64,000 bases of DNA, from positions 62,001 through 126,000 of the forward strand of contig JAOUJW010000007.1 of NCBI GenBank assembly GCA_029882975.1. The letters are read 5' to 3'. Position 1 is the stretch's first letter, and every line of letters begins with the position of its first letter. Of this stretch, positions 38,189 to 64,000 are shown piece by piece. This stretch comes from Gammaproteobacteria bacterium (GTDB taxonomy: Bacteria > Pseudomonadota > Gammaproteobacteria > SZUA-152). Both the position numbers and the translations under genes were made by a program. Below the pieces are notes generated by a model that did not search any database, was not told where the DNA came from, and was given only the letters and a program-made list of their open reading frames with translations.

Positions 38189-40561
38189 GTGGATCCCATG
38201 AGAAAAAAACCCCCAGTCCCAAAAACCCAGGTTACGCGGAGCGCGCCAGACCGTCAAACACCCGAACCCTCTGCACTATCCTCTGCTATAGAACCTTCCA
38301 CACGGGAACCGTCACAGGAAGCTCCTTCCAGCGAATCCGCCGCCCGGGAAATTCAACCGGCACAACCCGACCCAGCCCAAATCCTACAGGACAATATTCA
38401 GGCGGTCCTTGAAGCCAGGCACCATGACCCACGTTGCGTTCTCGGCAAACACACAGACGCCGCCGGTAATACAATCATCCGTGTATTTCGCCCCCGCACC
38501 CGTGAATTACGTCTACATGACTCGGACACGTTGCTGCAGCGACTTGGCCATAGCGATCTGTTTCACTGGCAAGGGGAAACCGATATACAGGAACCGTACC
38601 GATTACGCTATGTGGATGACCAAGGCGACACCACAGTGGAATATGACCCTTATTCCTTCGCCCCTCAAATTTCAGATTTTGACCTGCATCTATTTTCGGA
38701 GGGTAAACACTGGCATGCCTATCGGATCCTTGGTGCCCACCCCGTCACTGTGAGCCAAATAGCCGGCGTACGTTTCAGCGTCTGGGCACCCAATGCCGGA
38801 CGTGTCAGTGTGGTAGGTGAATTCAACCACTGGGACGGAAGGGTACATCCCATGGTTAATCGGGGGGGGAGCGGCATTTGGGAGATTTTCATTCCGGGGA
38901 TTGGTTGCGGCAGCTTGTATAAATTTGAGATTCGTCACCCCTCCGGTCGCATACTCTTAAAAACGGACCCCTATGGACAGGAATTCGAAAACCGTCCCAA
39001 AACAGCGTCCATCGTCACCGAGAGCCACTACCAATGGCAAGACGCCACCTGGCTCGAGGCACAACGCCGGCGTGACTGGCTGCACAGCCCCTTGTCCATT
39101 TACGAACTGCACCTGGGTTCCTGGAAGCGGGGACATAGCGAAGGATTTCTCAATTACCGTGACATCGCCACAGAACTTATCCCCTACATCAAGTCTCTGG
39201 GATTTACCCACATTGAATTATTGCCGGTAACGGAACATCCCCTGGATGGATCCTGGGGCTACCAAACCACGGGATACTTCGCCCCCAGCAGCCGCTTTGG
39301 AACACCGGATGACTTACGCGACTTTATTGACCAATGTCACCAAAGCCAAATTGGCGTACTGGTCGACTGGGTTCCGGCTCATTTCCCCAAAGATGACCAT
39401 GGATTAAGCGTCTTTGATGGCAGCGCCCTGTATGAACACGAAGATCCTCGCCTGGGTGAACACCGTGACTGGGGCACATTGATCTATAACTACGGTCGAG
39501 CCGAAGTGAAAAACTTTCTTCTGGCCAGTGCGGTGTACTGGTTGGAAGAGTTTCATATCGACGGCTTGCGGGTGGATGCGGTGGCCTCCATGCTGTATTT
39601 GGACTACTCGCGAGAAGCAGGTGACTGGCTTCCCAACAAGTACGGTGGCAATGAAAACCTTGAAGCTATAGATTTCTTGCGCGAACTGAATACGGTGATC
39701 CATTCTCAGTTTCCCGGTTGCCTGGTAATGGCCGAGGAATCCACTTCCTGGCCCCAGGTCACACGCCCATGCTATCTGGGCGGACTGGGATTCAGCATGA
39801 AATGGAATATGGGTTGGATGCACGACACACTCAATTACATGAACAAAGACCCCATCTATCGCCGCTTTCACCACGACCAGCTCACGTTCGGTATGATGTA
39901 TGCCTTTAGCGAAAATTTCATTCTGCCCCTCTCCCATGATGAAGTGGTGCACGGAAAAGGCTCCATGATTCGCAAAATGCCCGGTGACGATTGGCAGAAA
40001 TTTGCCAATTTGCGAGTTTTGTATACGTATATGTTTACTTACCCGGGTAAAAAACTCTTGTTCATGGGGAGCGAATTCGGTCAATGGTCGGAATGGGATT
40101 TTGATAAGTCCCTGGATTGGTACTTATTGGAATTGCCGTTCCATCAAGGGTTGAAATCTACGGTGAGCGACTTGAACCGGCTCTACACCCAAAATACCGC
40201 TTTGCATGAACTGGATTTTGAAAGCGACGGCTTCCAATGGATTGATTGTCATGACGCAGACCAGTCTATTATTAGTTATATTCGTAACAGCCCCGAACAA
40301 ACTATGATAATCATCCTGAATTTCACCCCTAAACCCCGTGACCACTATCGTATTGGGGTACCCTCCCCGGGAGATTACGAGGAAGTCTTCAATTCAGACT
40401 CCAGCTATTACGGCGGAAGCAATGTGGGTAATCTGGGCCTTATTCCGGCGGAAAATACGCCCTGGATGAATAACCCTTGCTCTCTCTTGCTCACCATTCC
40501 ACCGTTGGCCGGAATGGTACTGACACACAAGCCTGACGGTAAAACAAAAATAGAACCATGA
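38189..40561 (+). CDS. glgB: 1,4-alpha-glucan branching enzyme, copy 1, with N-terminal extension
   Basis: GlgB introduces alpha-1,6 branches. The 790-residue protein has a Pro/Ser/Glu-rich, probably disordered extension (about residues 1-65), then an N-terminal beta module, a CBM48 ('[24 protein letters not shown]') and the GH13 barrel. Catalytic residues are Asp in '[18 protein letters not shown]', Glu in '[10 protein letters not shown]' and Asp in '[12 protein letters not shown]'. The start is GTG at 38189 or ATG at 38198; neither has a strong ribosome-binding site. The stop overlaps the glgA start (ATGA). A second glgB is at 50249-52423. Confidence 0.95.
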
Positions 40562-50248: not shown

Positions 50249-52423
50249 TTAATCAGACATCCGTTTTAACACAACCCCAGCCAGCGGCGGCAACGTAATA
50301 TTTATGGACCAAGACCGCCCCATCCATCCGATGTCTTCGCTGTGCAGACCAAGGGAGCCATTACCCATATTACTACCACCGTAGTACTGAGAATCGGAAT
50401 TGAACAGTTCCTGGTACATTCCCGGCTCCGGAACACCCAAACGATAGGCTTGTCGTACCACCGGCGTAAAATTAATAATCACTATAATACAAGTATTTTG
50501 GTCCCGGCGAATATAACTGATAACAGATTGCTCCGAATTCTGGCAATCTATCCATTCAAACCCCTGCCAATCAAATTCATAGGTATGCAAGGGTGCTTGG
50601 GCCTGGTACAGATGGTTCAAATCCTTTACCAGGTTTTGCACGCCCTGATGTAGAGGATATTCCAACACATACCAATCCAAAAAACGACCACTGTCCCACT
50701 CCAAGCCTTGCCCGAACTCACAACCCATAAAGAGTAACTTTTTGCCGGGGTGGGTAAACATATACGTATACAACAATCGCAAATTGGCAAATTTTTGCCA
50801 TTCATCACCGGGCATTTTATTCAACAAAGACTGCTTACCGTGAACGACCTCATCATGGGAAAAAGGTAACAGAAAATTCTCCGTGAATGCATACAACATG
50901 CTAAACGTCAGTTCATTATGATGATGTTTTCGATGCAGCGGATCGTTTTCCATATAAGCCAAGGTATCGTTCATCCAGCCCATATTCCATTTCAAGTCAA
51001 ATCCCAAACCTCCGGCAAAAACCGGACGACTGACTTGCGGCCAGGAAGTGGACTCTTCCGCCATCATCAACACACCTTTACAGGCCTGGTGTACCACCGT
51101 ATTGAGTTGCTGTATAAACTCAATGGCGGCCAGATTTTCCCGACCACCGTACGCATTGGGTAACCAGTCCTCCCGGGAGTAATCCAGATATAACATAGAG
51201 GCAACGGCATCCACCCGCAAACCATCCAAGTGAAACTCTTCCAGCCAGAATAAAGCGCTGGATAACAGAAAATTCTTCACTTCATTGCGACTGAAATTGT
51301 AGATCAAGGTGGACCAATCCAGGTGTTCTCCCAAACGCGGATCTTCGTGTTCATACAAGGCGCTGCCATCAAAACGTGCCAAGGCAAAATCGTCCTTGGG
51401 AAAGTGCGCAGGCACCCAATCCAGGAAAACACCGATGTCATTTTGGTGACAATAGTCAACAAAATAGCGAAATTCATCCGGACTCCCATAGCGCGATGTG
51501 GGCGCATAATAGCCGATGGCCTGATAACCCCAGGAAGGATCAAAGGGAAACTCTGTCAGTGGCAATAACTCAATATGGGTAAAACCCAGGGCTTTTACGT
51601 GCGCCACCAATTGGTGTGCCAGCTGCCGGTAGTTCATACCCGAACCATCGCTGTTACACTTCCAGGAACCTAAATGAACTTCGTAGATGGAAACCGGACG
51701 GTGCTGCCAGTCAAAGCTTTCCCTTTGCTGCAACCAGAGGTCATCCTGCCATGAATAAGCTTGTACCTGCGGTACTATCGCAGCGTTACTCGGTCTTAGC
51801 TCAAATTGCTGCGCGTAGGGATCGGTTTTCAGAAATACCGCACCGGTGTGGCGATTTCGAATTTCGTATTTGTATAAGCTCCCCGGCGCCAGATCCGGTA
51901 CGAACAACTCCCAAACACCGGAACCGCCCCGACAACGCAAAGGGTGACGTCGACCATCCCAGTGATTAAAGTCTCCCACCACACTGACCCGCTCCGCATT
52001 GGGAGCCCAAACGGCAAACAATACACCTGCAATACCTTGTGCCTCATGGGCATGTGCCCCAAGAAACCGGTAGGCGTGCCAATGTTTTCCCTGAGCAAAC
52101 AAATGCAAATCAAAATCGGGGATTTGTGGGGGAAAACTATAAGGATCATGCAGCACATGCCGACTTCTGTTGGCGTCATACCATAGTAGTTGATAAGGCT
52201 TGCTGATCGATGCTTGCCCGCGCCATTGGAACAGATCCGAACTATCGATACGACTCATATGCTGTTCATTGTCCAGCAAGGTAACGGAACAGGCACCCGG
52301 CAGGTAGGCTCGGATGACGGTTTCACCGTTGATCTGATGCGGTCCCAGAAAAGAGAACGGATCGTGATGTCTGGCGCTGCAAAGTTTTTCCAGATCCGTC
52401 AGAGATTCTCGCGTTTCATCCAT
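50249..52423 (-). CDS. glgB: 1,4-alpha-glucan branching enzyme, copy 2
   Basis: A full-length 724-residue branching enzyme, clearly paralogous to copy 1 but lacking the disordered N-terminal extension. It has '[24 protein letters not shown]', Asp in '[18 protein letters not shown]', Glu in '[10 protein letters not shown]' and Asp in '[12 protein letters not shown]'. The ATG at 52423 is chosen because GAGGGAAG lies about 6 nt upstream; an earlier in-frame start at 52447 is weaker. It is followed by glgX, so this operon may serve remodelling rather than synthesis (inference). Confidence 0.94.
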
Positions 52424-52838
52424 AACATTCTTCCCTCTCCCATCCATTACATTGGTGACACTACCGTCTCATATAATAGAAGAAATTGGCTTGTACCACA
52501 CAGACGGGACATGTTGTAGACAGGACTGGCTGAACAAAATCGCAGGCAAAAAAAACACCCCTTAGGTGAAACTCACGGTCGGGGTGCTAGTGCAGCCAAA
52601 CTGGCTTGTCGGATGACACATCACCCAACGAGAATTCTGTACCACTCTTACAGAGCAATTGCTGTGCCATACTTTTATCCTGTTGTTTTAAATGATAATT
52701 ATTTGATTTCCCTGAAATGTCAGCACAGTTTTGTAAAGATTGTCGACGATCCGGAAATGCAAACTTTATGTAATCTGGCTAATTTTTTTTCAAAGGAACC
52801 GATATACAGGGATAATAGACGGATAAGACGAGAACACG
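52424..52838. other. 415-nt intergenic region with a leftward terminator
   Basis: The left part must hold the promoter of the glgB2-glgX operon. A strong minus-strand terminator is at 52547-52588. From 52590 to 52838 I see no convincing gene on either strand; this stretch could be the 3' UTR of the glycerate kinase mRNA or a small RNA ending at the terminator. Confidence 0.6.
52547..52588 (-). terminator. Rho-independent terminator, leftward
   Basis: On the minus strand CACCCC pairs with GGGGTG, enclosing a second hairpin GTGA-GTT-TCAC, and eight T follow. It lies about 380 nt past the glycerate kinase stop codon, with no leftward gene in between. Confidence 0.8.
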
Positions 52839-55802: not shown

Positions 55803-56894
55803 CTACAGCAAAGCGATCTCAGGCTGTGCCGGCCCCTGCAACCTTATCAAACTTGAATCCCAAGACACTGTTTCTATACAGGTTTTATAAATCTGCAGCG
55901 GAAATTGCTGCAGTATTCCACACAAGGGATTGTGCCTCGACATACCCACAACCAAGGATTCAATACCCTTTTGTGCCGCCCGGCCCAAACCGTCCTGCAA
56001 TAGGGGCACAGCCAGCCGCGTCACAGTCTCATCCAGCGCCAAAAAACACCAATAGGCCTGCGAAAACAACCGACCTCGGGGCGGTAAAGAGATTCTCCCG
56101 GTAAGCCGAGCAAATCCGTTATAAAACGGACGCAGCATATTGACAGGAAAACGATATCCCTGGACGCGGATTTGCTTGAAGGCAGTTTGATCCCAAAACG
56201 CCATACAAGCCTTCAATTCGCCGGCCTGCTCGTACACCCAAAAATCCTCTAAGCGCAATCCATGACTTCCATCCAGGGAGTATAACCATGACTCTTCCAA
56301 TACTGCCGAAAATTGGTAGGCTTGCACAGTGCGGTTATATAATTCTGTGATCGCAGTCACGTCATCGGCTTGGGCGGGACGCAATAATCCGTGAATTTTT
56401 CCTTGCCGGGTAGACATTGCTAAACTGAGCAGTTCATCCACCCATTCATAGCGCGGCAAACCTTTGAGACCGGCTTCCAATAATCGCCGTGCCACCCGGT
56501 TTTCAGAAGCGATGCTGGTGAAATAAAAAGGGAGACTGCCGTCAAAAGGTAGCAGTTGGCGTATCGATTCAAAACCGTTTTTCAAAATACGAAAGCGCAT
56601 ACGATACCGGGGGTTGACCCGTAACCCCCCTAGATAGACTAAATTCCGGGCTTGGCCATTCACGTGTACGGGTAATCGATTACAGTTATACATGCCTACC
56701 ACGCACCCATCATGAGTATGAGCAATTACGGTGACGGAATCGCCCATCAAGCCACTGCCTTGAAAATACGCGGGTTCCCGCTCCATAGCCAGTTGCACCC
56801 AGGAATCCATGGCATTGGCCTTGAGCAGCTGTCGCAATTCTACATCGTGCTCTGCGCGGGCAATACGATGTTCAATACCTCCCGCCTCAAACAC
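55803..56894 (-). CDS. GNAT-like acyltransferase, last gene of the GH3/radical SAM operon
   Basis: The 363-residue protein has an N-terminal GNAT-type domain (about 10-140) with 'VVGMYNCNRLPVHVNGQARNLVYLGGLRVNPRYR' where acetyl-CoA pyrophosphate contacts are expected, and a second, similar half (about 175-350), so a tandem GNAT fold is likely. The start is GTG at 56894 with GAGAGG 5 nt upstream. It begins 9 nt after the second radical SAM gene. Substrate unknown; an acyl or aminoacyl donor for a product of the operon is inference. Confidence 0.72.
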   Translation of the reverse strand: MFEAGGIEHRIARAEHDVELRQLLKANAMDSWVQLAMEREPAYFQGSGLMGDSVTVIAHTHDGCVVGMYNCNRLPVHVNGQARNLVYLGGLRVNPRYRMRFRILKNGFESIRQLLPFDGSLPFYFTSIASENRVARRLLEAGLKGLPRYEWVDELLSLAMSTRQGKIHGLLRPAQADDVTAITELYNRTVQAYQFSAVLEESWLYSLDGSHGLRLEDFWVYEQAGELKACMAFWDQTAFKQIRVQGYRFPVNMLRPFYNGFARLTGRISLPPRGRLFSQAYWCFLALDETVTRLAVPLLQDGLGRAAQKGIESLVVGMSRHNPLCGILQQFPLQIYKTCIETVSWDSSLIRLQGPAQPEIALL

Positions 56895-56903
56895 CGTCGC
56901 CTC

Positions 56904-58274
56904 TCATACGGGTAGCAAATTTCCCTGCCAACGTTCATCGCCCAGCGGATAACCGTTGCGTTTATCCACATCGGCACGATGAATAAAATTAATGGGAAAA
57001 TAGTTTCGGAACATAAATGAGTCACTGCGGTTAGTCTTGTCAAAACCACGCTTAAGAATACTATTGATGGAATAAAACCGCCGCCGTGCCTGCACACACA
57101 AGCGAGTGACATCCTGGGGTTGTAATTGGTGCGGTATAAACGGCACATCATTGTAGCGGTAGGCTTCATCCAACCACCATTGTTTATAACGCAAACGTCC
57201 TTGCGATTGCAGTTTGTCGTACAAGGGAGTTCCCGGAAACGGTGTCAAATGATTGAAAGCGGCAATGTAGAGTTTTTCATCAATTGCGAACTGCACCGCT
57301 TCATCAAAAGAGGAATGTTTGTCATGATCGTAGCCGAATACGAATGTACCATACACACGAATATTATGTCGGCGCAGGTTGGCCAAGGCGCGCGGATAAC
57401 CCCCTTTCATGGCGTTAAACCCCTTTTGCATCGCCTTTAAATTGGCCTCATCAAGACTTTCAAACCCGATCAACACGCCCTTACACCCGCTGCGTGCCAA
57501 CAATTGCAGGAAGTCTTCGTCATGAGCCGCGTTGATACTCATTTGCGTTACCCACTTAATATTTAAAGGTTGTAATGCGTGCAGGAATTCCGAGGCCCGT
57601 TTAATGTTGCCGGCAAAATTATCATCAACAAAAAAAAACAACCGTGTTCGCGGTTTAAGTTCTATGAGTTCACGAATCACGGCATCAACCGGTCGCGAGC
57701 GGTGCGTCCGTTTGAAGACGGTTTGGATAGCGCAAAAGTCGCAAGGAAAGCGACACCCTCTACCGGTTTCCACCAAGGCAATTGGTAGATAGTTCTTATG
57801 TGCAAATATAGAACGATCCACCTGAATGTGACTCAAATCCGGAGCCTCTTGGTTTTCATACACCCGCTGCAGTGAGCCGTGTAATAGATCGTCCACTAAC
57901 TCCGGCCAGACCCGCTCAGCCTCGCCAATCACGATAGCATCAGCGTAGCGCGAAACTTCTTCGGGTTGTAAAGTGGCATGAAAACCGCCCAAAATGACCG
58001 GAACACCCCGCCGACGATATTCGCTGGCAATTTGGTAGACACGCTTTGCCGTATAGGTTTCCACCGACATCGCCACGGCATCAGTCGGTTCATCAAAAGG
58101 TAGGGTTTCCATGCGGTCGTCATAGAATCGCACTTCAACACTATCCGGTGTCAATCCTGCTATTGCCGCAGCCGGTAAAGGTTCCATCTGCCAGGAACGA
58201 ATATAGTTTTCACCGATTTTATGACCAATGGCCGGATGAATAATAGTCAACCTGGTTTTGAATACAGAATCCAT
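56904..58274 (-). CDS. B12-binding-type radical SAM protein 2
   Basis: Radical SAM enzymes of this class couple a 4Fe-4S cluster with a cobalamin-type domain to carry out methylations, cyclisations or C-C bond steps. The 456-residue chain has an N-terminal cobalamin-binding-like Rossmann domain ('AVAMSVETYTAKRVYQIASEYRRRGVPVILGG', 'ADAIVIGEAERVWPELV') without an obvious DxHxxG, then the cluster motif 'GRGCRFPCDFCAIQTVF' (CX3CX2C) near residue 180. A C-terminal segment of about 110 residues follows the barrel. It starts 1 nt after the first radical SAM gene. Confidence 0.88.
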   Translation of the reverse strand: MDSVFKTRLTIIHPAIGHKIGENYIRSWQMEPLPAAAIAGLTPDSVEVRFYDDRMETLPFDEPTDAVAMSVETYTAKRVYQIASEYRRRGVPVILGGFHATLQPEEVSRYADAIVIGEAERVWPELVDDLLHGSLQRVYENQEAPDLSHIQVDRSIFAHKNYLPIALVETGRGCRFPCDFCAIQTVFKRTHRSRPVDAVIRELIELKPRTRLFFFVDDNFAGNIKRASEFLHALQPLNIKWVTQMSINAAHDEDFLQLLARSGCKGVLIGFESLDEANLKAMQKGFNAMKGGYPRALANLRRHNIRVYGTFVFGYDHDKHSSFDEAVQFAIDEKLYIAAFNHLTPFPGTPLYDKLQSQGRLRYKQWWLDEAYRYNDVPFIPHQLQPQDVTRLCVQARRRFYSINSILKRGFDKTNRSDSFMFRNYFPINFIHRADVDKRNGYPLGDERWQGNLLPV

Positions 58275-58275
58275 G

Positions 58276-59649
58276 CTAATAGTCTCCGGACACGGTGGAG
58301 CTCTTTACACTCGGGGTGACCGAATTGGGTAGCACCTGCCATTGCCAATCGCAATTGTAAAAGCGCTGCAGATGATGGGCATAAAACCGGTATCCCATAT
58401 TGGTACTCAAAGCCAAAGGTTTTAGATTACCCGCCTTCCATAGACGCCGAGCGATAGCGGACCAGGCGTATACTTGTTTCCAGGCTCGCTCATGTCCCTG
58501 GAGTAACTGACTCACGGACATGTTTTTCGGTTGAAAGACCACATGTTGGCCGTCATACAACTCCCAATCCCGGGTCAGAATGCGCCCTTCCGCTGCCAGA
58601 CGTTGGTATAAAGGAGTACCTGGAAAAGGAGTCAACACAGCGAAGCGAGGCAAATCTACACCGGCATCGATAGCAAATTCTACAGTTTCACTAAACACAT
58701 CCGGGCTATCATGGTCCAAGCCAAACACAAAGCAACCCTGGATGGAGATGCCCAGCGCATGCAAACTATTAATCAGGCTTTTATAGTCTACCGAGGCATT
58801 AAAAGGTTTTCGGGTTTTACTCAGGTTGTCGCGAGAGACCGTCTCCAACCCCAACAATAAACCCTTACAACCGCTACGCGCCATCAATTCCATCAATTGA
58901 GGATCATGGGCAATTAAGACAGTGGACAATCCGTACCAATGGACATTTAGTGGAATGAGTTGGGTAAACAATTCTTTGGCATAAGCCACATTGGAAATCA
59001 GATTCAGATCGACAAATAGGATTTTTTTCTCGCCTACGCGTTTGATATCTTCTATCACCCATTCAACAGGCTTTTGATATTGCTTGCGCCCCCAGGCAGA
59101 CGGAGCCACGCAAAATTCACAATCGTGGAGACAGGAGCGGGTCGCCTCAAATACGGCCTGGGTAAGAAAGTAGCGCTTGTCCAACAATTCTCTTTTTGCG
59201 AAGGGCATGTTTTCCAGCGATAAATCCTCACCTTGACGATAACAGATTTGGAGGGCACCACGGTTGAAATCTCGCAGGAGTTGTGGCCACGCCTGTTCGG
59301 CATAACCAATACAGATGGCGTCCGCATGTTGCTGAGCTTCTTCCGGCATCAAGGTAACGTGCGGGCCACCCAAAACTACCGTTTTTCCCTGTTGGCGATA
59401 TCGCTCAGCCAGTTCATAAGCACGGCCGGCGGTACCGGTAATGACTGTCATTGCCACCAGATCCGCATCGGTTTTTTGCGGAGCATCGCAGATACCTTCA
59501 TCCACCAATTCCAGCTTCACGTCCAAATCCTCGGGAACTAAAGCGGCCAAGGTGGTCAGCGTGAGGGGTTGGTAACGCAGAGATTTTTTGAATATACCGC
59601 CCTTGTTTCGATACAAAGGACCTTTGGGGGACAGCAATAAAATTTTCAC
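58276..59649 (-). CDS. B12-binding-type radical SAM protein 1
   Basis: The 457-residue paralogue of the gene downstream. The N-terminal half contains 'KTDADLVAMTVITGTAGRAYELAERYRQ' and 'VVLGGPHVTLMPEEAQQHADAICIGYAE', and the cluster motif is 'TRSCLHDCEFCVAPSAWG' (CX3CX2C). 'GVDLPRFAVLTPFPGTPLYQRL' is typical of the class. As in its partner, no DxHxxG is evident, so cobalamin may bind without a lower His ligand or not at all. The start is GTG at 59649, giving 'VKILLLSPKGPLYRN' with GGGAG 8 nt upstream; it overlaps the GH3 stop as GTGA. Confidence 0.88.
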   Translation of the reverse strand: MKILLLSPKGPLYRNKGGIFKKSLRYQPLTLTTLAALVPEDLDVKLELVDEGICDAPQKTDADLVAMTVITGTAGRAYELAERYRQQGKTVVLGGPHVTLMPEEAQQHADAICIGYAEQAWPQLLRDFNRGALQICYRQGEDLSLENMPFAKRELLDKRYFLTQAVFEATRSCLHDCEFCVAPSAWGRKQYQKPVEWVIEDIKRVGEKKILFVDLNLISNVAYAKELFTQLIPLNVHWYGLSTVLIAHDPQLMELMARSGCKGLLLGLETVSRDNLSKTRKPFNASVDYKSLINSLHALGISIQGCFVFGLDHDSPDVFSETVEFAIDAGVDLPRFAVLTPFPGTPLYQRLAAEGRILTRDWELYDGQHVVFQPKNMSVSQLLQGHERAWKQVYAWSAIARRLWKAGNLKPLALSTNMGYRFYAHHLQRFYNCDWQWQVLPNSVTPSVKSSTVSGDY

Positions 59650-61274
59650 TGGTTGCGCTCCCGGCGGGGTTTCCCACTCGCCATATTGTCCACTCTTTCC
59701 TTTCTCTCCGTATTCCCTTTCTCCATATCCCACTCCGTTATCTCTTGGGTAAACAAGCTCAATCGGTCAGTATCCAGCAGCAACGCGGGCACTTTAATGT
59801 CTCCAAGTCGCTGCGTTTTAGAAGCACAGAATAAATACCTGGACAAAGCTTTTTCCATTACACCCAGACGCAAGGGCCTTAACTGCCCTATCTGCAGGGC
59901 ATAGGCGTATTGCGGATTGCGCTTTAATTGCCGCTCCACCTGCTGCACACATTGAGAAGGAGACACTTGCCCCCCTGAATCCACTAACAAAATATAACCC
60001 GGTTTACTCTCTTTGGATGGTACCAACATTCTGAACCCGGATACACCCTCGATACAATGTGAGACAAACGACTCCGTTAACTTCTCTCCAACCAAATCCG
60101 ACACTCGACCCATCCTGCCTTCAAAGCGCAACACAGGGTCATCACTTTGGACGGACTCACAGACCACACGGTCACCGGTTCGATAGCGATACAATCCGCC
60201 GGATGTCGTCATGATCACTTCATAACTCGAACCGGGCTGAAGTTCCCGGGGCAAGTAAATATCGCCATCATGAAGAAACTCATAAAATCCACAACCGCGC
60301 GCCAGACGGCAAAGCCCGGCTGTATCGGGAACGGTCACCACTCCCTCCGTAGACAACAAACCTTTGGCTTCAAACTGAGTATAAGGCAATCTTTGTTGTA
60401 ATTGGTGGTAGTAAGTTTCTGAGGATGCATGGGTCCAACAACTGACCAAAGATAATTGCGGCCACAATCGTTCACAATCCGCATCCAGCAAAAATGCCTT
60501 GAAACGTTGTAAGGCCTGAGCGTCCGCTTCTACCTTCATACCCGGCTCATGACATCCAAACCGCAACAAGGCGAGTAAAGAATCTTGTTGCTGTAGCAAA
60601 CCATCCAACAAGGTAATGAAAAACGTCGGGCTCCAAATGGAAATAAACTGTAAATCGTAGCTACGTAATAAATAGTACAAGCTGAGCCGTTGCCATTGGT
60701 GATACTCCGTAAGTTGCGCCACATCCGATGGTACTGCCGATAACTCCGCCAACAAGGGCAAAACATCCTTACCTAAATAGGCTCCGTCACTCAAACCCAG
60801 CGGTATTCCCCCGGTAGTAAACTGTTGCATGCGCATCGCCGGACTGATGGCCCAGTATGCTTTTGCGGTATCGGACAGTTTTTGTGCAACACGTCCAAGC
60901 CAGGGCAACAGAGCTAAACGAAAATCCTCTAAGCTCCGAGAAGAGTAAGGGATAAGCTTGGGTCCACCACCACTGCCCCCCGTGATTTCAAATGCCACGG
61001 CGCGTCCCTTGAACAATATATCCGGCTCCCCCTGAGCAATACGCTCAATGGAATGATGCGCATCCCCATAACCACACAATGGGACGAACTCTCTATAATC
61101 GTCCACTGATTGAATCCGTTCGAACTGGCATTGATGGCCGTAGTCTGTTGCCTGATTTTCCTTTAAGCAACGCCAAAGCCAATCTTCACAGCTGCCGGCT
61201 TCCGGCAATTGACACGCCAACAGCGAAAGTTGCCGCCAAAGAGAATTTTGTTCCTCGCGAGAAGAAAAGCTCAT
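59646..61274 (-). CDS. GH3-family acyl-acid amido synthetase-like protein
   Basis: GH3 proteins adenylate a carboxylic acid with ATP and join it to an amino acid; plant members conjugate auxin and jasmonate. The 542-residue protein has the phosphate-binding loop 'ITGGSGGGPKLIPYSSRSLEDF', the adenylate-binding 'YEVIMTTSGGLYRYRTGDRVVCE' and the hinge 'RMGRVSDLVGEKLTESFV'. The family is rare in bacteria compared with plants. It is the first gene of a four-gene leftward operon with two radical SAM genes and a GNAT-like gene. Confidence 0.88.
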   Translation of the reverse strand: MSFSSREEQNSLWRQLSLLACQLPEAGSCEDWLWRCLKENQATDYGHQCQFERIQSVDDYREFVPLCGYGDAHHSIERIAQGEPDILFKGRAVAFEITGGSGGGPKLIPYSSRSLEDFRLALLPWLGRVAQKLSDTAKAYWAISPAMRMQQFTTGGIPLGLSDGAYLGKDVLPLLAELSAVPSDVAQLTEYHQWQRLSLYYLLRSYDLQFISIWSPTFFITLLDGLLQQQDSLLALLRFGCHEPGMKVEADAQALQRFKAFLLDADCERLWPQLSLVSCWTHASSETYYHQLQQRLPYTQFEAKGLLSTEGVVTVPDTAGLCRLARGCGFYEFLHDGDIYLPRELQPGSSYEVIMTTSGGLYRYRTGDRVVCESVQSDDPVLRFEGRMGRVSDLVGEKLTESFVSHCIEGVSGFRMLVPSKESKPGYILLVDSGGQVSPSQCVQQVERQLKRNPQYAYALQIGQLRPLRLGVMEKALSRYLFCASKTQRLGDIKVPALLLDTDRLSLFTQEITEWDMEKGNTERKERVDNMASGKPRRERNQ

Positions 61275-61376: not shown

Positions 61377-62036
61377 ATGAAAAAACTGTTTCTGCTATTG
61401 TTGTTTATTTTCAGTACGACTTTTGCTTTTGCTGATAGCACTTCTGACAGTACTTCTGACAGCACTGTCGGCCTTTCCGGCAACGGCTCTGCCTCAACTC
61501 AGTCAGTATCGGCTCCCCATGAACAAGACCGGGCAGCGCTTAAACAAATACTCAAGGAAATCGAAGCGGCAATTAATGCTATGGACTTCGAAGGTCTGTT
61601 CAAACACTTTGACGAAAATATCAGCGTTAATTTTATGACCAACGATATCGCAGTGGGTAAAGAGGCTATTATTGCCTTTTACAATAAGCTGTTTAAAGAT
61701 GAGGGCGCCATCTTACAAAGCCATAAAACCACAGCCAGTCTGGGTGCCCCTGCCGTGTTTCACGATAACACCATTACAGCCTATGGCATGGCCAGGGATA
61801 CGTTTGAATTAAAAGACGGTACTATCCATCACTTTGATACCCGCTGGACCGCCAGCGCTGTGAAGAAAAACGACCAATGGAAAGTCGTATCACTCCATTT
61901 TTCAGTCAGCCCCTTCGCCAATCCCATTTTGGAGCAACTTACCGGCAAGCTGGGACTGTTCAGCGTAGTCGCTTTTGCCGTGGGTATCATTATCGCTTTC
62001 TTTATCGCCCGGTTTGGCAGGCGCTCTACCACTTAA
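61377..62036 (+). CDS. Exported NTF2-like (SnoaL/DUF4440-type) protein with C-terminal anchor
   Basis: The 219-residue protein has a signal peptide ('LFLLLLFIFSTTFAFA'), a 12-bp tandem repeat coding for 'STSDSTSDST', an NTF2-like cone fold (about 55-175, 'ILKEIEAAINAMDFEGLFKHFDENISVNFM' and 'DTRWTASAVKKNDQWKVVSLHFSV') and one C-terminal membrane helix ('LGLFSVVAFAVGIIIAFFIARFG'). Such domains bind small hydrophobic ligands or act as weak enzymes. It overlaps the convergent PAP2 gene by 4 nt and is divergent from the GH3 operon. Confidence 0.8.
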   Translation: MKKLFLLLLFIFSTTFAFADSTSDSTSDSTVGLSGNGSASTQSVSAPHEQDRAALKQILKEIEAAINAMDFEGLFKHFDENISVNFMTNDIAVGKEAIIAFYNKLFKDEGAILQSHKTTASLGAPAVFHDNTITAYGMARDTFELKDGTIHHFDTRWTASAVKKNDQWKVVSLHFSVSPFANPILEQLTGKLGLFSVVAFAVGIIIAFFIARFGRRSTT

Positions 62037-62686
62037 CCCTTGGCCTTGGCCGACAACCGGAGGGTTTCTCCGGTGTCGGCTAAACCGGGCAGAAATACCC
62101 AACGATAGCATAAATACGACAAAACCATACCACCCACAATATCCACCATATGGTGCTGGTGCACCAACAACACGGAAATACTCAACAGCAACCACCAGAA
62201 CATCATTAACAACAAAGGAATTCTGGGAACTGAAAAATAAAAAGCCAAATGCATAACGAAGGTGGTATAAGCGACGTGTAACGATGGAAAGAGATTGTGC
62301 GGCATATCCAATGTATATATCAAAGAAAACAACAACCCGGCATCAGTGTTAAAGGACGCCCTGGGAATTGCCAAGGTAGTCGGAAACGTAAAGAAAATTA
62401 TCCCGGCAACCAGCGTCATAACTGTATAACTCAGAGCCCAGGGCTTCAAAGCCGTCTCGCGCAAATAGAACATCGGTAGCAATAGAAATAAAACCAAGGA
62501 CAAATAGACATAAACAAAAGTGGGAACAAACGGAAGCGACAGCTCCCACTGGAAATACCAACGATACCAATCAGCTTGCCGTGTTGCCCACCAATTGGTG
62601 AAGCCGTACACCAAAAAACATTGCAAGTAGAGAAGCGTACCGACTCCCATATATTTTCTAAACAACGAACCGCCTGGCCACTTCAT
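62033..62686 (-). CDS. PAP2-family membrane phosphatase
   Basis: PAP2 enzymes remove phosphate from lipid or isoprenoid phosphates. The 217-residue protein has about six membrane helices. It has 'MPHNLFPSLHVAYTTFVMHL' (the PSLH motif with catalytic His) and 'VHQHHMVDIVGGMVLSYL' (the HxxxD motif). The first motif (KX6RP) is not clearly visible, which points to the IPC-synthase/DUF2838-like subgroup. Substrate unknown. Confidence 0.85.
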   Translation of the reverse strand: MKWPGGSLFRKYMGVGTLLYLQCFLVYGFTNWWATRQADWYRWYFQWELSLPFVPTFVYVYLSLVLFLLLPMFYLRETALKPWALSYTVMTLVAGIIFFTFPTTLAIPRASFNTDAGLLFSLIYTLDMPHNLFPSLHVAYTTFVMHLAFYFSVPRIPLLLMMFWWLLLSISVLLVHQHHMVDIVGGMVLSYLCYRWVFLPGLADTGETLRLSAKAKG

Positions 62687-62877
62687 GATTGCCTACGCCT
62701 TACACGATAACGAGTTCTGCAGATTATATCGCAGCTGTCTGTTTTGACAGGTGCGTGTGAATCCCATTCAGCCGAATATAACTGGACTCGCGGCCGATTA
62801 TAACATTACGAATGGCATGGTAAATGCATTTTTGGAATATAAAACAATTAATAATGAATGAAACAAAGATCACAGTA

Positions 62878-64000
62878 TGTCGTTTTCCATAACAAGCAGA
62901 GAGATCAACCCGCAAATTGGTGTTTTCGCTGTGCCGGGCGATACGCTCTCAGCACAGAGTATTCTCATCGCCACTTTGATTAACAGGCACCCGGTCGAGT
63001 TATGCAATATGCCGGTAACTGACGGGATATTGAAACTACTGGAGGCGCTGCAACATTCCGGCGCCACCGTACGCCGCCAAAGTGATGTTTTGAGTTTAGA
63101 CTATGACTCCATGAGTTCCTACAGCGAAACGACGTTAACAAACTTACTGGATGCACTGGACGAACCGTCCCTATTACTGCCTGCCGCCTTAGCACTCAAC
63201 GGTGAAATCACACTAAACCGGGAACAACTTGCGCGGTGCACAACCACCCCCATGAGTGCAATCTCGCAAGTACTGGAAAGTTTCGGTGTAGCCGTGTCCG
63301 TCACAAGTGACAGCGTTTGTGCAAAAACCCATTTTTTTAAACCATCCAACATAAACTTGCAAGACTACCTCCATAGACAATGGCAGGACACAGAAAAGCG
63401 ACAACAAAATGCCGCCTTAAACTTGTCTATGATTGCCATCATCACCGCCGCCGCCGTGACGCTGGGTGCCAGCACTGTGCAACTTCCTATCAGGCACCCT
63501 GTTGTGGACGAGTTACTGACGTTTTTAAAAGCCGGCGGTTACAGAGTAGCCCGCAAAGACCTGAGCGTAGCCATTACTCCGCCTCGAAAAGCCAAAAATA
63601 TGGTGAGTTTCAACTTACGTCCTAACCCAAGTAACATTTTCGCATACGTAACCGCCGCCACGTTTTTCAATATCCCCCTGGTATTACGTAATGTACCGTT
63701 ACAAACCGTAAAGCAACACCAGGCCGAAAAACTGTTATTAGAGCGCATGGGATTGAACATCGTCTACGAATGCAACTCCATGTATATTCCGGTAAGAGAG
63801 TCCGTCAAGCTATCCCCAATGGAGATCGACCTGGAAAAAACCGGCATACACCCAAACCATCTGGCTTTTTTTGCCTTAATGCTCAATCGCTCCCAAGGGC
63901 CCAGTTATATCCGTCCTTGGCCTGCGGAGCTGAATTGTATTATGGAGCTGGCGAAACTTGGCCTGCGACTGGAAATCGCCAATGACGTGTTGCGGATCAA
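62878..64000 (+). CDS. Divergent EPT-fold (MurA/EPSP synthase superfamily) protein, 3' end outside window
   Basis: The frame is open from the ATG at 62878 to the last base with no stop, giving at least 374 residues. The repeat pattern is that of enolpyruvyl transferases: 'VPGDTLSAQSILIATLI' and 'ELCNMPVTDGILKLLEALQHSGATV' in the first domain, then 'VRHPVVDELLTFLKAGGYRV'-like units and 'IFAYVTAATFFNIPLVLRNV'. The MurA catalytic Lys-Asn ('GAKNA') and the MurA Cys loop are not seen, nor the EPSP synthase SKS motif, so activity may be lost or changed. The upstream ribosome-binding site is weak. Not near aro or mur genes. Confidence 0.7.

Follow-up and report, generated by a model that had tools for sequence, protein, structure and literature searches.

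The only characterized bacterial GH3 enzyme that we found is OlsH of Singulisphaera, a lyso-ornithine lipid synthetase that makes N-acyl-ornithine from free fatty acid (PMC12493201). A GH3-family enzyme is also encoded in the 64,000-nucleotide stretch of gammaproteobacterial contig JAOUJW010000007.1 analyzed here (positions 62,001 to 126,000; hereafter the window), within a tight leftward operon of four minus-strand open reading frames (ORFs) that further specifies two cobalamin-binding radical S-adenosylmethionine (SAM) enzymes, rSAM1 and rSAM2, and a double-GNAT protein, GNATb (Table 1). The two systems share the GH3 fold family, recognizable nucleotide motifs and bacterial amide formation, but OlsH neighbors OlsG and OlsI rather than GNAT and radical SAM genes, and the paper describing it does not mention a radical SAM gene (PMC12493201). 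We put at roughly 60% the probability that a horizontally mobile lipophilic-amide pathway, apparently undescribed, has half of its genes in the window, and that in this pathway the GH3 enzyme and the N-myristoyltransferase (NMT)-like GNATb assemble the product and radical SAM or O2-dependent modules oxidize it. A broader formulation, which we hold with slightly less assurance but still favor, is that these genes make an undescribed class of bacterial lipo-amide by a plasmid-transferable pathway present in at least ten phyla, where a GH3 ligase cooperates with a bacterial NMT-type acyltransferase and each of two oxidations can be entrusted to interchangeable catalysts, a cobalamin-radical SAM pair or Rieske enzymes.

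The domain content of the operon is largely as an earlier note, made from the DNA letters, had described it. The GH3 protein matches PF03321 at 121.4 bits (gathering cut-off 23.6) and retains intact all three nucleotide-binding motifs as defined for the family (PMC12493201): TGGSGGGPK, HASSE and GGLYRYRTGD. Its nearest NCBIfam model is that of OlsH (NF052613), against which it scores 37.6 bits where the equivalog cut-off is 620. The subfamily profile also aligns with plant GH3 acyl-acid amido synthetases (GH3.15, 6avh; JAR1) over about 490 positions, almost the whole length (E 5e-27), although identity is low and the gene neighbors differ. Both radical SAM proteins carry the B12-binding domain PF02310 (37.8 bits for rSAM1 and 51.4 for rSAM2; cut-off 32.1), match PF04055 and contain the CX3CX2C core, which is kept in 52/52 orthologues of each. 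This architecture is shared with BchE and HpnJ, as is the apparent role of O2-independent counterpart to an O2-dependent step, but the pair scores only 100.2 and 72.9 bits against the BchE model (cut-off 481) and 96.2 and 78.9 bits against HpnJ (cut-off 578), occurs in tandem and lies in a cluster that contains no tetrapyrrole or hopanoid genes. The ladderane radical SAM model TIGR04072 was rejected (84.1 and 57.3 bits; equivalog cut-off 360). A DXHXXG motif is absent from the cobalamin domains of rSAM1, rSAM2 and the related rSAM3, and rSAM4 has one chance-like match.

With the window GH3 protein and three relatives as seeds, in a query blind to neighboring genes, a collection of about 85,000 species yielded 80 GH3 loci, 42 of which have at least 7 kb on each side of the gene (full-flank loci). 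The 80 loci were annotated with family profiles against all stop-to-stop frames, and many ORFs of high-GC loci, being antisense artefacts, were replaced. The set noticed in the window co-occurs far outside its source genome: GNATb and a second protein, GNATa (a single GNAT of about 250 residues that belongs to no Pfam family), accompany GH3 in 42/42 full-flank loci, and rSAM1 and rSAM2 are present in 31 and 32 of them. The commonest order is GNATa-GH3-rSAM1-rSAM2-GNATb, often followed by rSAM3 and rSAM4, a membrane protein of about 222 residues, a fatty-acid-desaturase-like protein, SnoaL and PAP2. SnoaL and PAP2 family members each occur at 31/80 loci (25/42 and 26/42, respectively, with full flanks), and the SnoaL-TM and PAP2 genes that flank the window operon belong to the system. 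In one locus (L053) GH3 and GNATb are fused into a single 929-residue chain, which argues that both enzymes act on the same molecule.

A tree of 166 radical SAM proteins, with modest support at some inner forks, resolves four groups (rSAM1 to rSAM4) that contain one member per locus (52/52, 52/52, 28/28 and 25/25), and CX3CX2C is present throughout. The two paralogues of the window each belong to one such orthologous group, and since each group has a single tip per locus their presence in the operon is not due to chance. A fifth cobalamin-type radical SAM gene adjoins the desaturase in enterobacterial versions (L027, L028 and a Citrobacter plasmid, L111:23070-24383); in the Morganella loci its product shares about 41% identity with rSAM1.

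The loci span alpha-, beta-, gamma- and zetaproteobacteria, Acidobacteriota, Planctomycetota, Cyanobacteriota, Bacillota, Deferribacterota, Myxococcota, Bacteroidota, Thermodesulfobacteriota, Omnitrophota and Synergistota, so that the gene set is found in ten or more bacterial phyla, with the proviso that many loci are metagenome bins whose individual assignments may be wrong, above all the Synergistaceae locus L023, which falls among proteobacteria in the GNATa tree. Isolates are also represented (Morganella, Malikia, Sulfitobacter, Zhengella, Aeoliella, Planktothricoides and Segetibacter). A distant GH3 gene also appears in entries filed as phage (Acinetobacter phage MD-2021a records), which may be bacterial DNA in the assembly.

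Neither rSAM3 nor rSAM4 is found beside the window operon, and a search of the source genome located the pair on another contig (C29), in a single operon of nearly all overlapping or adjacent genes that begins with the genome's one copy of GNATa and continues with an AurF-like diiron protein, a hexapeptide-repeat membrane protein and a desaturase-like protein (Table 1). The four genes of the window are half of one pathway divided over two loci. In the GNATa tree the source-genome copy lies, with weak support, nearest the clade of O2-dependent variants described below, which suggests mosaic assembly of the pathway. Among 369 genomes of the class, GNATa is encoded in 8. All 8 are among the 11 genomes that have a close GH3 (hypergeometric p 2e-14), and rSAM1 orthologues (E <1e-200) are confined to 3 of the 8 GNATa carriers; the scores of weaker matches to rSAM1 (E about 1e-104) are like those of its paralogues rSAM2 to rSAM4. 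The distribution is patchy, and in the family of the source organism only 2/24 genomes have the GH3 gene, one for each version. A complete radical SAM-type cassette of 11 genes, including the fifth radical SAM gene, resides on a mobilizable IncF plasmid of Citrobacter portucalensis; DNA searches found no copy of it among 5,426 E. coli genomes.

These observations are consistent with the following scheme, in which we infer the substrates and the order of steps. The GH3 enzyme would convert a carboxylic acid to an acyl-AMP and couple it with an amine, for example an amino acid, and GNATb would transfer a long acyl chain from acyl-coenzyme A or acyl carrier protein to a primary amine, with the carboxylate at its own C-terminus acting as base. 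GNATa, which has a single domain, may add or position a further acyl or aminoacyl group. The rSAM1/rSAM2 and rSAM3/rSAM4 pairs would carry out two oxidations in succession, each a hydroxylation, a desaturation or an oxidative cyclization; aerobic variants would use Rieske and desaturase modules instead, served by a membrane redox partner of their own. Membrane accessory proteins (desaturase, SnoaL-TM, PAP2, AurF-like and hexapeptide) could complete the product in the membrane. Because membrane-type partners recur, the product is suggested to be lipophilic, and the lack of any fatty-acid synthase, polyketide synthase or transporter among the conserved families implies that the pathway draws on host metabolites. 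The proposal that the operon makes and conjugates a small molecule or modified lipid, with GH3 conjugating and radical SAM enzymes modifying, fits this scheme; four genes were too few for it, since the pathway comprises about 11 and is split in two in this genome.

The product might instead be a diffusible signal or an antibiotic-like natural product, perhaps quorum-controlled in the source genome, rather than a membrane lipid. LuxI- and LuxR-like genes 2-5 kb further upstream on the same contig (L011) would suit such a role, as would the patchy, plasmid-borne distribution, a weak match of SnoaL to the SgcJ/EcaC family and the RnfD/UnbV domains of the O2 variant, which are known from enediyne clusters. 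LuxI is not, however, among the families conserved at other loci, and the families counted include no conserved gene devoted to transport or resistance, so we regard a signal or antibiotic as unlikely, though not strikingly so. The UnbU/UnbV proteins of enediyne clusters have a parallel in the fused RnfD-like and FG-GAP/UnbV_ASPIC protein of the O2 variant, but no polyketide synthase is found among the conserved genes and the RnfD/UnbV protein is absent from the window version. A search for UnbV, RnfD and enediyne gave no match among Creative Commons-licensed PubMed Central papers.

A lipid product could also arise by a variant of GH3-dependent aminolipid synthesis of the OlsH/OlsI type, in which GH3 forms an N-acyl amino acid, the GNAT proteins acylate it on oxygen and the fatty chains are modified by the radical SAM enzymes. 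The precedent of OlsH, both in its product and as the nearest model (PMC12493201), speaks for such a route. We consider it doubtful in view of the gap between the OlsH score and its cut-off, the silence of the OlsH paper on radical SAM genes and the lack of OlsI: the window operon has no OlsI or other alpha/beta hydrolase, and a hydrolase-like protein without a Pfam match (HYD) is present in some other loci only.

The role assigned to the radical SAM enzymes in the lipo-amide scheme is drawn from their exchange with O2-dependent enzymes around the same core of GH3, GNATa and GNATb. At the first position (module A), 32 full-flank loci have rSAM1 and rSAM2, 8 have an O2 set composed of a VanA-type Rieske oxygenase, the membrane protein TM220 and a fused RnfD/FG-GAP/UnbV protein, none has both and 2 have neither (p 4e-7 in a Fisher test, which here and below treats related loci as independent). 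At the second (module B), 18 loci have only rSAM3/rSAM4, 15 only an O2-type module (a second Rieske protein or HYD), 1 (L069) both and 8 neither (p 8e-5). Other apparent double-module loci were discarded as low-scoring cross-matches (rSAM1 at 36 bits in L072; FG-GAP at 59 bits in L036). Loci with the radical SAM form include some whose assigned taxa are anaerobic (Desulfobulbaceae L092, Mucispirillum L088 and Clostridiales L074), and loci with the O2 form come from cyanobacteria (L029, L057) and proteobacteria. In O2-variant loci (L009, L010, L055 and others) the fused RnfD-like/FG-GAP/UnbV_ASPIC protein accompanies a Rieske oxygenase and TM220, which is unannotated and about 220 residues long; the fused protein and TM220 possibly supply the oxygenase with a membrane redox chain of its own.

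Because O2-dependent modules take their place, as AcsF does that of BchE, the rSAM1/rSAM2 and rSAM3/rSAM4 pairs likely oxidize rather than methylate; BchE is a six-electron oxidase (PMC13142503). Among the chemistries that the earlier note had offered (methylation, ring formation or carbon-carbon chemistry), methylation is therefore the less likely. Alternatively, the pairs could be cobalamin-dependent C- or P-methylases that act on a branched small molecule, the oxygenase modules serving a different but related product. Most cobalamin-radical SAM enzymes are indeed methylases (PMC13142503) and weak matches to the PhpK and HpnR models were obtained, yet the module A sets substitute for each other without overlap and rSAM2 best matches BchE and HpnJ, not methylases, so that we view a methylase role as improbable.

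Several observations temper the case for oxidation of a shared product. The radical SAM or O2 label requires at least three changes on the GNATa tree, so that independent support comes from a few switches, not dozens. Some loci (L083, L086) have GH3, GNATa and GNATb with neither module in the stretch seen. The roles of the radical SAM enzymes rest on mutual exclusivity, and the O2 module could in principle run a parallel route to a different product.

The GNAT relationship claimed for the fourth gene product is real, and the protein is more exactly a predicted NMT-like double GNAT. By sequence its GNAT matches fall under the Pfam cut-offs, and the assignment was settled by its predicted fold. 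An AlphaFold2 model built from 61 homologues (mean predicted local distance difference test score 96) aligns with NMT over 302/363 residues (VIA-align Z 24.6, root-mean-square deviation 3.0), and the best 50 VIA-align matches are exclusively N-myristoyltransferases (Z 24.6-22.9, about 300/363 residues); Foldseek likewise returned NMT (E 4e-14). In NMT the C-terminal carboxylate is the catalytic base, a feature called unique within GNATs (PMC4964394). The C-terminus of GNATb is correspondingly invariant: 62/63 sequences stop at a single alignment column, the last residue being L, V, I or M, whereas most other families of the cluster reach only 13-68%. About 19 residues lie beyond the last long strand, an extension that resembles the C-terminus of NMT1 and differs from that of HisAT (PMC12219266). 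By sequence GNATb does not belong to the Pfam NMT families, whose models do not match the window protein (NMT_C matches 1/61 homologues, E 0.0037); its resemblance to NMT lies in the predicted fold and probably extends to the mechanism. The same comparison with GNATa gave general GNAT matches only (GCN5, NatD and LasI; Z 11-13).

Some evidence tempers the assignment. It is a fold prediction, a mycobacterial tandem GNAT (7q3a) was a close second in Foldseek (E 1.1e-12), and double-GNAT folds also occur in small-molecule acetylating enzymes; moreover, the C-terminus of Rieske1 (10 members) is similarly fixed, which makes the control imperfect. Although the full-length double-GNAT fold and the fixed aliphatic end of GNATb recall eukaryotic NMT and would suit a protein-lipidation system, with GNATb acylating N-terminal glycines and the other genes making an unusual acyl donor, we think this very improbable, as GNATb lies in a bacterial operon where a protein acceptor is unlikely, the clusters have no conserved substrate protein, the GH3-GNATb fusion points to a small-molecule amide and HisAT is a double GNAT with a small-molecule acceptor (PMC12219266).

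No characterized biosynthetic cluster in the searched libraries matches these genes. Together with their co-occurrence in other genomes, this runs counter to both outcomes that the earlier note had named as refuting its proposal. GH3 combined with radical SAM, GNAT, desaturase or PAP2 genes was found in no described cluster among the same openly licensed papers; a prior description in the subscription literature is possible. The lipo-amide pathway is apparently undescribed, although assembled from known enzyme superfamilies. An odd four-gene operon becomes a testable pathway, with a core of GNATa, GH3 and GNATb and two swappable oxidation modules, and offers a rare side-by-side view of cobalamin-radical SAM and oxygenase solutions to apparently the same reaction, as with BchE and AcsF. 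Bacterial GH3 enzymes gain a second context besides OlsH, and bacterial NMT-type structures, which were recorded as a surprise without function (PMC12219266), are placed in a genomic setting that points to a likely role. That one mobilizable plasmid carries the entire cassette suggests that some 11 genes are sufficient and that the trait repays its cost in a new host. The product could be sought in cultured carriers such as Malikia spinosa, Sulfitobacter algicola, Zhengella mangrovi, Aeoliella, Planktothricoides and Segetibacter.

Table 1. Pathway genes of the source genome, in the window and on contig C29.
Feature	Location	Strand	Length (residues)	Basis or remark
GH3-family acyl-adenylating amide synthetase	window 59646..61274	-	542	PF03321 and PF23571 above cut-off
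rSAM1, cobalamin-binding radical SAM enzyme	window 58276..59649	-	457	PF02310, PF04055; GTG start
rSAM2, cobalamin-binding radical SAM enzyme	window 56904..58274	-	456	PF02310, PF04055
GNATb, double-GNAT NMT-like acyltransferase	window 55803..56894	-	363	predicted fold
SnoaL-like protein	window 61377..62036	+	219	PF13474; divergent from GH3
PAP2-family membrane phosphatase-like protein	window 62033..62686	-	217	PF01569
GNATa	contig C29:13155-13934			
rSAM3	contig C29:13921-15279			
rSAM4	contig C29:15276-16604			
AurF-like diiron protein	contig C29:16628-17605			
hexapeptide-repeat membrane protein	contig C29:17602-18321			
fatty-acid desaturase-like protein	contig C29:18312-19268			

The coordinates and junctions of the window operon agree with those first reported. 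The GH3 stop and the rSAM1 start share GTGA, with the GTG of rSAM1 at 59649, and gaps of 1 and 9 nucleotides separate rSAM1 from rSAM2 and rSAM2 from GNATb. The start of rSAM1 at this GTG (MKILLLSPKGPLYR) agrees with the starts of its orthologues and was preferred to a 485-residue version from 59733, a mechanical over-extension. Promoter and terminator scans gave no more than chance-level results. The SnoaL-TM protein has an N-terminal signal-like segment and a C-terminal hydrophobic segment. A defense system was dismissed, the radical SAM proteins giving only weak cross-matches to PDC-M51A.

Directly upstream of the PAP2 gene is a gene for an EPSP synthase/MurA-like protein that scores below both equivalog cut-offs, and the LuxI- and LuxR-like genes follow it. 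This stretch (contig C7, L011:878-4520), the first part of which is 62857-64000 of the window, continues past the window's right end and is not conserved at other loci. About 10 kb further (L011:10274-19682), inspected translations show a separate cluster with a cytochrome P450, a nonribosomal peptide synthetase-like protein, an asparagine synthetase, an acyltransferase-like protein and two sterol-desaturase-family proteins. Within the window, inspection of 28480-52447 revealed a dense glycogen region encoding a phosphorylase, an amylomaltase, a GH57-type protein, ADP-glucose pyrophosphorylase, glycogen synthase and a debranching enzyme, together with two different branching enzymes (38189-40561 and 50249-52447).

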